Source: Streptantibioticus ferralitis (GTDB taxonomy: Bacteria > Actinomycetota > Actinomycetes > Streptomycetales > Streptomycetaceae). Taken from it: a stretch of 64,000 bases of DNA. A program made the translations under genes and the position numbers. The stretch covers positions 310,001 to 374,000 of the forward strand of contig NZ_JARHTQ010000005.1 of NCBI RefSeq assembly GCF_029223525.1. The letters run 5' to 3'. Shown here in pieces: positions 21,218-27,066 of this stretch (position 1 is the stretch's first letter; the number at the start of each line of letters is the position of its first letter). Under the pieces are notes generated by a model that did not search any database, had not been told where the DNA came from, and saw only the letters and a list, made by a program, of their open reading frames with translations.

Positions 21218-21457
21218 TTACCGGTTGATGCAGGCGTTGCCGAAAGCGGGGTTCAGAATGCCGACGGCGTCGATCGTGTTGCCGCAGAGGTTGATCGGGA
21301 CCGAAACCGGCACCTGGATGACATTGCCCGAGATCACACCCGGGGAGCCGACTGCGGCAGCGGCGGCACCCGAATCGGCCGCAGCCAGTCCGGCACTGCC
21401 CGCGACAGCGGCCCCACTTACGGCGGTCACCACGAGAGCCTTGGCGATACGCGACAT
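21218..21457 (-). CDS. Short chaplin (hydrophobic aerial-hypha protein)
   Basis: A 79-residue secreted protein of the chaplin family, the amyloid-forming coat proteins that let aerial hyphae leave the water surface. After a signal ending near AAADS comes one chaplin domain: GSPGVISGNVIQVPVSVPINLCGNTIDAVGILNPAFGNACIN. The two conserved cysteines are C58 and C76. There is no second domain or sortase signal, so it is of the short ChpD-H type. The ATG is preceded by AAAGGA. Such genes are usually under developmental (bld/whi) control; nothing in the upstream sequence proves that here. Confidence 0.95.
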   Translation of the reverse strand: MSRIAKALVVTAVSGAAVAGSAGLAAADSGAAAAAVGSPGVISGNVIQVPVSVPINLCGNTIDAVGILNPAFGNACINR

Positions 21458-21818
21458 GCTCGAGTCCTTTCATGCATGAAGATCAGCGGATCACGCTCCC
21501 CGCCGACAGGCGGCTGGGACACTGACCAACGCACGGCTGCCCTATTTGTGGCGCAATGCCCCTCGAACAGGTGAATACCCGTGCCGCAGTCGGCGCAATG
21601 GTGACGTTCAACGGCTGAATCACCTGTTTCGCGTACCTCTCGCACCGTCACCAGCACTCCTCGGAGCCGCACTCCGCGATGCCCGCATGCCACCCCTCCC
21701 CATCCCACCGGCGGGCACCGCCCCGATGGAGCAGCGACACTCCCGCTCGCCGCGACAGACCGCCGCGGCGCACATAGCGTCACTTACGTCCCATTCGCGC
21801 GATTCGAGGAGCTCGATC
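21458..21818. promoter_or_regulatory. Shared divergent promoter region with repeats
   Basis: 361 bp between the divergent chaplin and polyhistidine genes, with no coding gene. It contains a 9-bp inverted repeat AACAGGTGA/TCACCTGTT at 21566-21574 and 21620-21628, and within and beside it a direct repeat GGCGCAATG at 21550-21558 and 21592-21600. These are candidate regulator sites for one or both genes. Confidence 0.45.
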
Positions 21819-22049
21819 GTGAAGAAGTCCCTTGCCCGAGGCGCCGCTGCCGCCTTCCTCTCCGCCGCCATCGTCCTGCCGCTGGCCGGCGTGGCCCAGG
21901 CCATGACTCCGACCTGGAACCACCCCGAGCACCAGAAGCACTGCCGCCACCACCACCATCATCACCACCATCACCACCACCTCTGGAACGATGGCTGGCA
22001 GGGCAACTGGGCCTGGGGCGGTCACCGCGGCTTCCTCGGGCACTTCTGA
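21819..22049 (+). CDS. Small secreted polyhistidine protein
   Basis: A 76-residue preprotein with a clear Sec signal (KKSLARGAAAAFLSAAIVLPLAGVAQA). The mature part of about 48 residues contains 16 histidines, including an unbroken run of 11 at residues 44-54 preceded by HCR, and ends in Trp/Gly-rich WNDGWQGNWAWGGHRGF. Free histidine runs bind Ni, Cu, Zn or Co, so an extracellular metal-binding or buffering role is a reasonable inference; I do not recognise a family. The GTG at 21819 has GAGGAG 7 nt upstream. It is divergent from the chaplin gene and followed by a strong terminator. Confidence 0.82.
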   Translation: MKKSLARGAAAAFLSAAIVLPLAGVAQAMTPTWNHPEHQKHCRHHHHHHHHHHHLWNDGWQGNWAWGGHRGFLGHF

Positions 22050-22076: not shown

Positions 22077-22108
22077 CGACGGTCCCCGGCAGTTGCCGGG
22101 GACCGTCG
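22077..22108. terminator. Hairpin terminator after polyhistidine gene
   Basis: A 15-bp perfect inverted repeat (CGACGGTCCCCGGCA at 22077-22091 with 22094-22108) separated by only 2 nt, 28 bp past the stop codon. Confidence 0.8.
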
Positions 22109-23894: not shown

Positions 23895-25919
23895 TCAGCC
23901 GGTGACGTCCGCCGGGCAGAGCCGGTGTGCGCGGTGCTCACCGCGCAACGAGGCGTCGACGCAACCGCCGGGCAGCCCGTCGTGCGGGGTGGCGCCGAAG
24001 TTGGCGGTCACGGTCAGCGTTCCGTCGCCGAAGACGGTGCGCTGCAGCTGGTGGTCGCCGGTGAGGTAGCGGAACGAGGTCATGGGCTGGGCGCCCGCGG
24101 CCTGGTGCAGCGGGGCGAAGTACTTCTGCAGGGCGGCGAGTTCGGCGCCGTGCTGCTGCAACGAGGGGCCGTCCAGGACGAAGTTGAGCGGGATGTTGTA
24201 CAGCATGGCGAGCAGCGCGCGGGTGTTCTTCTGCTGCGGCAGCTTGTCGAACGACAGCTCCCAGCGCTCCACGTTGACCACCGAGTCGTGCAGCGCCGTC
24301 TCGTAGAGCGGAACCCGGTACCGCGGGTCGTACATCGCGGTGGCCAGGTCCGCGGGCAGGCCCACCGGCTTGAAGAAGGTCCCGGGCGCCTTGGCCGGGG
24401 CGTAGCCGCCCCAGGCCTGCTTGTCCTTCTCCAGCTTCCACAGGCCGTCCGCGACGGGCGTCGTGGAGCCGTGGTCGTAGGCCAGGACCTGGTTGGCCCA
24501 GGCACCCGCCGCCTCCGAGCCGAGGACCAGCTTGTCGTCACCGGACAGCCGCTTCATCCGGGCCAGCCGGTCGGCCCGGTCCTGGGCCTGGGTCATGGGG
24601 TGCGCGGCGCTGTGGTCCTGGTACAACTCGCCCGCGGCGTCCACGTCGAGGAAGTAGCTGTTGACGCCGTTGGCCGTCATCTGCCGGGCGCGGTCCGCGA
24701 GGTAGTGGCGGGTGGGCTCGGCCTGTTCGAACGCCTGCGAGCTGAGGTAGCAGCCGCGGCCGTGGAAGCCGCTCAACGGCTTGCCGTCCGGGCTCTGTAC
24801 ACAGAAGTCGGGGTACACCGTGCCGGGCCAGGTGGAGGTGGGGCTGTCCGAGGTCTTGGGGTCCTGGCCGTTGGCGAACGAGTCGTACGGGCCGACCAGA
24901 TACCCCGCCTTCTTGGCGGCGCTCACGGCGGCGGGGCTCATCGGTGAGTCATCGGCGTCGTAGCCGAGCCACATCCGGGAGACGCCCAGCTTCTTCAGGC
25001 GCGCGATGCCGTCGGGGGTACGGGCGTCGCCCCACAGGTAGGCGTGGAACGCACCGAGCAGCTTGGCGTTCTGCGGACTGGCGGCGATCTTGTCGCGCAG
25101 GCTGCCGAGTTGGCCGTGCTGCGCCAGCCAGCCTCGGTAGTCGACGGCCGTGGCGACCGGCGAGCCGTCGGTCAGGGCGAAGGTGACCGTGTAGTCGCCG
25201 GTGGCGTTGGCGCGTGAGAAGCGGTGGCTGGTGGTGGTGTGCAGCCGACCCCGGTCGGAGGCGAAGTGCAGGGTGCTGCCGATATCGGTGGGGACGAGGT
25301 AGCTGACGCCGCGCCCGCCGATGGTGTAGCCCCACATGGGCATGCTCAGGTCGGAGGACATGTCGGCGTCACTGCCCGCGAGCCCGGCCGCGGGCGAGTT
25401 CCAGAACCGGTCATGGACCGGAACGGAGAGCCCTTCACCGCGCGGGAACTGCACGGCGTCGGCGGCCGGGTCGGTGCCGGTGACCGGCCAGTTCAAGGTG
25501 GTGTCGCGGTGTGCTGCGGCGGTGATCTGCAGCCGTCCGTGGTCGGGGCGGGCGGTGAAGTCCAGCCCGGATCCGGAATAGCTCCAGTGGGCGGCGCCGT
25601 CGGAGACGGTGATACGTCCCGGTGTACCGGGAGCGGTGGCGGGCGCGTCGGACAGCCGCACGGAACGGCCGTCGTCGGTGCGCGCGGTCACCCGCAGGGT
25701 GGCCGTGTCGATGGTGGCGGTACCGCCCTGGACGGGGACGTCGACCCGGTTGCCGTCGACCCGCGGCGCGGCGGTCGGACGGGTGGGACCGGCATTGGCC
25801 GCGACACAGGTGGCCGCGGCCACCAGTGCGGTGGCGGCGGCCAGGAACGGAACAGCGCGCCGGACCCGGCCGCGCCTGCGATGCGTCGTCGGTACTTGCG
25901 TCATTCGCGTTGAGTGCAT
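23895..25919 (-). CDS. Secreted GH101/GH129-related glycosidase
   Basis: A 674-residue secreted protein. The N-terminus has an Arg-rich n-region and hydrophobic core (RRAVPFLAAATALVAAATCVAANA). A beta-rich domain to about residue 240 is followed by a barrel-like region with YFLDVDAAGELYQDHSAAHPMTQAQDRADRLARM and LVLGSEAAGAW. From memory these phrases match the glycosidases related to families 101 and 129, which release alpha-linked GalNAc-type sugars; the DVDAAG aspartate is the probable nucleophile. Substrate is inferred only. Two closely placed ATGs (25919, 25904) lack strong ribosome sites, so the start is uncertain. It stands alone and is divergent from the trypsin-like protease gene. Confidence 0.68.
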   Translation of the reverse strand: MHSTRMTQVPTTHRRRGRVRRAVPFLAAATALVAAATCVAANAGPTRPTAAPRVDGNRVDVPVQGGTATIDTATLRVTARTDDGRSVRLSDAPATAPGTPGRITVSDGAAHWSYSGSGLDFTARPDHGRLQITAAAHRDTTLNWPVTGTDPAADAVQFPRGEGLSVPVHDRFWNSPAAGLAGSDADMSSDLSMPMWGYTIGGRGVSYLVPTDIGSTLHFASDRGRLHTTTSHRFSRANATGDYTVTFALTDGSPVATAVDYRGWLAQHGQLGSLRDKIAASPQNAKLLGAFHAYLWGDARTPDGIARLKKLGVSRMWLGYDADDSPMSPAAVSAAKKAGYLVGPYDSFANGQDPKTSDSPTSTWPGTVYPDFCVQSPDGKPLSGFHGRGCYLSSQAFEQAEPTRHYLADRARQMTANGVNSYFLDVDAAGELYQDHSAAHPMTQAQDRADRLARMKRLSGDDKLVLGSEAAGAWANQVLAYDHGSTTPVADGLWKLEKDKQAWGGYAPAKAPGTFFKPVGLPADLATAMYDPRYRVPLYETALHDSVVNVERWELSFDKLPQQKNTRALLAMLYNIPLNFVLDGPSLQQHGAELAALQKYFAPLHQAAGAQPMTSFRYLTGDHQLQRTVFGDGTLTVTANFGATPHDGLPGGCVDASLRGEHRAHRLCPADVTG

Positions 25920-26103
25920 GAGGAGTTGATAGGGAACGATCCTGAACGGTTCCTGAGAACGGCCCGCCGACCCCGTGGCCCCCACCTCCCCCGGGTCTTT
26001 GCGCGCTGACCACTCGTCACTCACCTGCCGTTCGTAAGACGATGACAGCGTTGTGCCGCTCGTGTCGCCGGTCCCGCACCCGTTTCCCGTGGAGGAACCG
26101 CTC

Positions 26104-27066
26104 ATGCGCAGATCGACCGCTCTTCGTGCCCTCGCCGCCGTGCTCCTCGGAGCGCTGGCCGTCGTCTACCCCGGCCCCGCCTCGTACGCCGCCGCGCCGC
26201 CACCCCCCTCGCCCGGCGGTTCGGCGCCGGCGGCCGCGGGCACCGTCGACTCGTACTGGACGGCGCAGCGCATGGAGGCGGCGCAGCCGGTCGCGGACGG
26301 CAAGCCGAGTTCGGCGCCGCTACAGTCCGACGCGGCCGTACCGCCGAGCCATCCGTTCAACGGGCTGCCGCAGGTGGGCACGTTCTTCTGGACCGACGGG
26401 AACAACGTCGGCCGCTTCTGCGGGGCGACCGTCGTCCGCAGCCCGCGGCGCGATCTGGTGGTCAGCGCCGGGCACTGCCTGAGCCACCCGGACCCCAAGA
26501 GGTATCTGTCGTTCGTCCCGCAGTACCACGACGGACTCAAGCCGCATGGCATCTTCCCCGTTCAGGCGATCTACATCGATCCCCGGTACTACTCGCTGGG
26601 CTCGGGCAAGGGCGCTCGCTGGGACTACTCGGTGGAACGGCTTGCGCCGCGGGAGGACGGGCGTGAGGTCGAGGACGTGGTCGGCGGCTTCGATCTGGCG
26701 CCCTACCCGGGGTACGCGCATTCCCATGTGCGCCTCATCGGATATCCGGGGTTCAGCGACGCCAGCCATCCCAAGCCACTGGACTGCTGGTCCTCCACGG
26801 ACAAGTACACCAGCACGGATCCGGGCGCCCCGGGTGACTTCCTGGAGATCGCCTGCGCGGCGTACATCGACGGCACCTCCGGCGGGCCCTTCCTGGTGCG
26901 AGACCCGTTCGGCTACGCACTGATCGGCGTGATCGGCGGCTACCACACGGGCGGCGACACTCCCGATATCTCCTACAGCTCGTACTTCACCGAGGACACC
27001 CTCGCCCTCTACATACACGCCCTGCTCGGTGATCCGCCCGCGGGGAGCGGCCAACCGGCCGTGTGA
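26104..27066 (+). CDS. Secreted trypsin-like serine protease
   Basis: A 320-residue secreted S1-type protease. The Sec signal ends near YAAAPP at residues 28-33. The triad is visible as H124 in VVSAGHCLS, D174 in RWDYSVERL and S259 in DGTSGGPF. A prosegment of about 60 residues separates the signal from the catalytic domain, as in V8-like secreted proteases of streptomycetes. Cysteine pairs C106/C125 and C228/C251 look like disulfides. The ATG has a GGAGGAA ribosome site 6 nt upstream. Confidence 0.9.
   Translation: MRRSTALRALAAVLLGALAVVYPGPASYAAAPPPPSPGGSAPAAAGTVDSYWTAQRMEAAQPVADGKPSSAPLQSDAAVPPSHPFNGLPQVGTFFWTDGNNVGRFCGATVVRSPRRDLVVSAGHCLSHPDPKRYLSFVPQYHDGLKPHGIFPVQAIYIDPRYYSLGSGKGARWDYSVERLAPREDGREVEDVVGGFDLAPYPGYAHSHVRLIGYPGFSDASHPKPLDCWSSTDKYTSTDPGAPGDFLEIACAAYIDGTSGGPFLVRDPFGYALIGVIGGYHTGGDTPDISYSSYFTEDTLALYIHALLGDPPAGSGQPAV

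Follow-up and report, generated by a model that had tools for sequence, protein, structure and literature searches.

A secreted histidine-run peptide encoded beside a chaplin gene in Streptantibioticus ferralitis and its possible role in extracellular metal binding

The peptide gene and its chaplin neighbour

We analysed a 64,000-nucleotide stretch of the S. ferralitis genome (contig NZ_JARHTQ010000005.1, positions 310,001 to 374,000 of the forward strand), referred to here as the window. A sequence-only reading of this DNA had described the frame at 21819-22049 on the plus strand as a signal peptide followed by a 48-residue mature part with 16 histidines, 11 of them consecutive, divergent from a chaplin gene. 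The translation agrees with this description in every part. The frame starts with GTG and encodes a 76-aa pre-peptide, VKKSLARGAAAAFLSAAIVLPLAGVAQA followed by MTPTWNHPEHQKHCRHHHHHHHHHHHLWNDGWQGNWAWGGHRGFLGHF, with the cleavage site directly after VAQA. The genes and the parts of the peptide are as follows.

21218-21457, minus strand: short chaplin of 79 aa, the divergent neighbour (PF03777, E 7.8e-26)
21806-21811, plus strand: ribosome-binding site GAGGAG, 7 nt 5' of the GTG, kept in all four orthologues
21819-21902, plus strand: signal peptide of 28 aa, Sec type with an AxA cleavage site
21903-22046, plus strand: mature peptide of 48 aa, with 16 His, 5 Trp and 1 Cys
21939-21980, plus strand: His/Cys cluster HCRHHHHHHHHHHH, which includes Cys42 and the run of 11 His (H44-H54, nt 21948-21980)
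21981-22046, plus strand: Trp/Gly-rich C-terminal tail LWNDGWQGNWAWGGHRGFLGHF

Codon statistics were computed from the window, and the GC content of the peptide gene at the three codon positions (0.72/0.46/0.88) is typical of coding DNA there. At the window His frequency of 2.5%, the probability of at least 16 His in 48 residues is about 3e-14, and a random 11-His run is expected about 6e-12 times per genome, therefore the His content of the peptide is not a matter of chance composition. Judged by its sequence and by the orthologues described below, the gene is real and under selection, and its product carries an export signal.

The divergent neighbour has the three properties that we used to define a chaplin, namely a PF03777 match above the gathering score (90.1 bits vs a cut-off of 21), a signal peptide and two Cys residues, while the peptide itself gave no PF03777 match at E<=1. 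Natural His runs of this length had been expected to be rare, and runs of at least 10 His codons are indeed present in only 10 of 298 family genomes. The 8.8-Mb genome of the window species has one such run, that of the peptide, and this genus is the only one among the 298 genomes in which a small secreted peptide carries a run of at least 10 His. The other runs lie in unrelated long surface or Pro/Thr-rich proteins, in linkers or in doubtful frames. Four loci (L050, L051, L052 and L054) have 10-His runs inside long proteins; three of these proteins are Pro/Thr-rich, with Pro, Ser and Thr repeats after the His run, and one is a surface protein that is rich in Gly and has a hydrophobic segment at its C-terminus. 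Further along the window, a secreted GH129/GH101-type glycosyl hydrolase (23895-26105, minus strand; PF11308, E 4e-101) adjoins a trypsin-like protease (26053-27066, plus strand).

Orthologues and conserved parts

A search for orthologues beside chaplin genes, which the sequence-only reading had proposed as a check, found the peptide in three species of the genus and in one other genus, so the gene is not confined to one strain. The set comprises four sequences: the window species, G001, G002 (Streptomyces sp. RPT161) and G007, which belongs to the other genus. In all three genus genomes compared, the peptide and chaplin genes diverge in the same way and are flanked by the same ABC-transporter and MDMPI-like genes; DNA identity is 88.5% between G001 and G002 and about 85% between either of them and the window. 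The G007 orthologue, whose mature part has diverged, escaped the first search. It lies 366 bp from a chaplin gene with a very similar signal peptide and with conserved promoter and ribosome-binding site, and the trypsin-like gene is also found downstream at this locus. Its mature part contains far less His, with CHHHG in place of a run of the window type, and has many W/Y/G/N/D repeats. A five-row profile found no further copies divergent from a chaplin in 395 family genomes, and a divergent His-rich secreted peptide was absent from the best chaplin locus of every other sampled genome of the order. In these genomes, the pairing of chaplin and peptide is conserved in two genera.

The signal peptide is the most conserved part, with 18 of its 28 positions invariant among the four orthologues. 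Cys42, which lies inside the His cluster, is invariant in all four, and the Trp-rich tail (LWNDGW..W.W..HRG) is retained within the genus. The His run, by comparison of the same sequences, is the least conserved part of the peptide: its length is 11 in the window species, 10 in RPT161, 3+3 in G001 and 3 in G007. A run that varied in length with nothing else conserved had been named as grounds for dismissing the peptide; the length does vary, but the signal peptide, Cys42 and the genus tail are conserved. The dN/dS ratio of the peptide gene is about 0.3-0.45, calculated from the alignable parts only, compared to about 0.22 for four neighbouring genes, which marks the peptide as under purifying selection, but loosely constrained.

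The variation in run length bears on an alternative in which the run is mostly a neutral triplet expansion, and it is the Cys/His core and the Trp-rich tail that carry the selected function. The four run lengths are consistent with it, as is the fact that G001 and G002 are sisters, so that a run must have been lost or gained within the genus. Because of this sister relationship, the genus probably inherited a long run that G001 then lost, or long runs arose on two occasions. However, the two long runs have different mixes of CAC and CAT codons, which argues against a fresh expansion of a pure repeat, and the most parsimonious account is that the ancestor had a long run, which was kept in the window species and G002 and lost in G001. 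The short G001 version, the shortest in the genus, moreover keeps HHHSHCGHHH and still has 8 His in 41 mature residues. On balance, we regard a mostly neutral run as improbable.

The intergenic region

The chaplin and peptide genes are separated by 361 bp, in which two conserved blocks lie about 150 bp apart, one for each gene. The following features were identified here and downstream of the peptide gene.

21559-21574, minus strand: conserved chaplin promoter element TCACCTGTTCGAGGGG (TCACCTGTTCGAG), BldM Group I-like
21566-21628, no strand: 9-bp inverted repeat AACAGGTGA ... TCACCTGTT, arms at 21566 and 21620, of which the left arm alone is conserved
21723-21733, plus strand: conserved upstream element CCGATGGAGCA of the peptide promoter
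21752-21780, plus strand: candidate housekeeping-type promoter GCGACA-17-TAGCGT of the peptide gene, spacing 17-18 nt, in all four orthologues
22078-22107, no strand: strong hairpin, a probable terminator (z = -5.8, no T run), conserved in three species

The candidate peptide promoter was read by eye, and a scan with the sigma-70 consensus did not report it. Its upstream element CCGATGGAGCA occurs twice in G007, 22 bp apart. A regulon defined by this element was considered and rejected; its sites were not enriched genome-wide compared to a reversed control, and the same promoter layout was found only at orthologous promoters. The hairpin sits between the convergent peptide and MDMPI-like genes.

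On the chaplin side, TCACCTGTTCGAGGGG matches the BldM Group I site TCACcCgnncGgGTGA (PMC4125116) at 10 of 14 specified positions and is not identical to the published consensus. The BldM-like site lies on this side only, and none was identified at the peptide's own promoter. One class of short chaplin genes, including ones that lack the peptide, shares TCACCTGTTCGAG at a distance of about 100 bp upstream (window 21559-21574; L062-L066, L070 and L109).

A repeat-containing promoter region shared by the two genes had been taken as a hint of expression on aerial hyphae. The repeats do exist, and they include a small intergenic repeat GGCGCAATG at 21550 and 21592, but the inverted repeat was rejected as a shared regulator site, since its second arm is absent from the orthologues. 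Given the separate promoter blocks and the strain-specific inverted repeat, the region at most suggests expression of the peptide on aerial hyphae; co-expression with the chaplin there is possible but not implied.

Predicted function and wider relatives

Profile searches did not assign the peptide to a named family. In Pfam nothing scored above its cut-off (ZrgA 17.1 vs 27.4 bits, CbtA 12.2 vs 30.7 bits), and in NCBIfam neither the peptide nor seven relatives matched any family above the curated cut-off; the G007 orthologue scored 17.3 bits with mini_HHHH against a cut-off of 40. The zinc uptake protein ZrgA and mini_HHHH are thus His-rich like the peptide, but the profile matches are weak and all far below the cut-offs. 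Closer in form are Hpn and Hpn-like proteins of Helicobacter and the poly-His peptides of viper venom, which are likewise short, with a His run and expected Ni/Zn/Cu binding. Hpn proteins are cytoplasmic. The venom peptides are eukaryotic, whereas the peptide described here is bacterial and, besides its signal peptide, features a single conserved Cys and a Trp tail; it has no profile match to any named family of poly-His metal-binding peptides. The sequence-only reading knew of no described function, and a literature search found none and no paper on a His-rich peptide with chaplins.

Considering its composition, its conservation and the chemistry of poly-His, the peptide most likely binds Zn, Cu or Ni outside the cell. 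Poly-His tracts bind Zn2+ and Cu2+ stably, and more His gives stronger Zn binding (PMC5756558); His-rich low-complexity regions of prokaryotes have been linked to metal transport and to the binding of Ni and Co (PMC6821194). The orthologues have retained a Cys inside a His cluster but no fixed run length, a pattern that favours metal coordination over a tag-like run, and the Trp-rich tail suggests attachment or self-association. We propose that the peptide would be exported via Sec and remain largely unstructured; an AlphaFold prediction from its sequence alone had a mean pLDDT of 61.6 and no confident fold. The His cluster around the one Cys would then serve outside the membrane as a coordination site for Zn(II), Cu(II/I) or Ni(II), and the Trp/Gly-rich tail would probably hold the peptide within or on the wall or surface of the hypha, or aid self-association. 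Thus retained, the peptide would buffer or store transition metal for the growing hypha, or shield the hypha. In Streptomyces, aerial growth requires Sco, ECuC, DtpA and GlxA, which handle copper outside the cytoplasm (PMC4736821); this need for copper beyond the membrane makes it plausible that a metal buffer works outside the cell close to the chaplin layer.

Several observations count against a metal role. We found no Zur, Nur or CsoR-like operators in the intergenic region (best sites with 5-8 mismatches to the consensuses used), the neighbouring genes that we examined (ABC-2 exporter, two-component system, MDMPI-like and UbiE-like genes) include none for metal transport, and the mature part of the G007 orthologue is His-poor. 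Taken together, the chances are about even that this is a small Sec-exported metal-binding peptide that buffers or stores metal for the hypha, or shields it. Surface retention and use during aerial growth are possibly part of its role, with less support than metal binding itself.

The main rival to metal binding is a structural one, in which a disordered His/Trp/Gly-rich peptide phase-separates or crosslinks in response to pH or metal and forms a coat or condensate next to the chaplin film of the aerial hypha. The peptide is rich in His and aromatic residues, contains Gly and has no confident fold, its chaplin neighbour is conserved, and the W/Y/G/N/D repeats of the G007 orthologue would also suit such a coat. 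Squid beak proteins, which are secreted, disordered and rich in His, aromatic residues and Gly as the peptide is, likewise separate, through His deprotonation and aromatic stacking, but their peptides need tandem GHGxY repeats for condensation (PMC6884462). They are animal proteins and serve as an analogy only; the peptide has only 48 aa and lacks such repeats, and the promoters of the chaplin and peptide genes differ. A pH- or metal-driven coat peptide is a rival that we consider rather unlikely. Composition alone (16 His and 5 Trp in a small, secreted product) would also suggest an antimicrobial peptide or one that acts between species, with a positive charge at low pH and perhaps potentiated by metal. 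Such a role appears very unlikely, as no immunity gene was recognised in the conserved neighbourhood, the tail is conserved rather than diversifying (dN/dS below 1) and the linkage to the chaplin would be left unexplained.

A wider, undescribed set of secreted His/Asp/Cys/Trp-rich proteins may include the peptide as a short member that is linked to a chaplin. In many Streptomycetaceae there are secreted proteins whose signal peptide is similar and whose repetitive mature parts are rich in His, Asp, Cys, Gly and Trp (for example L011, L014, L016, L018, L139 and L147). As in the peptide, the signal peptide starts with Lys/Arg and ends V.PL.G.AxA, Cys residues lie in His clusters and the C-termini are Gly/Trp-rich; unlike the peptide, these proteins are longer, are not divergent from a chaplin and often end in GLLGIL. 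The profile matches (E 2e-12 to 5e-6) are driven by the signal peptide and His residues. Because signal peptides converge and low complexity inflates scores, common descent with this set is likely at most. G007 has a second, chaplin-free copy (L045/L139) in which 24 of the 28 signal residues are the same as in the chaplin-linked one; its mature part ends in GLLGLGGLL, bridging the chaplin-linked and wider groups. In the neighbourhoods checked, distant relatives had no chaplin except at L029/L046 and L151, where a chaplin is nearby but is not the divergent partner of a His-run peptide. No paralogue was found in the peptide's own genome, where weak matches (on C57, C110, C99, C66 and C22) were rejected as unrelated frames.

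It is conceivable, though doubtful, that aerial hyphae have in this peptide a dedicated, chaplin-coupled factor that binds metal outside the cell or forms a coat when triggered by metal, and that it represents the short end of an undescribed superfamily of secreted His/Asp/Cys/Trp-rich proteins in Streptomycetaceae. If so, the surface layer of Streptomyces would have a new component, one that connects coat formation with the handling of metal. Streptomyces requires both chaplins and extracytoplasmic copper for aerial growth, and a secreted His/Cys peptide that is genetically tied to a chaplin would connect these two requirements in a simple and testable way. The peptide is in effect a natural, native secreted 11-His tag, and it draws attention to a group of low-complexity, His-rich secreted proteins of Streptomycetaceae whose tested members have no curated NCBIfam match.

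Within Streptomyces, secreted proteins with R-K-x-V-G-R signal peptides (L143, L146, L147, L149, L150 and L152, from position 1501 onward) carry long DRDRD, DCDRGRHH or GWGGHH repeats and are worth a family definition. In another genus (g14), L025 and L030 encode secreted proteins with imperfect H-x-GYWE/HKTWHKGYW repeats.
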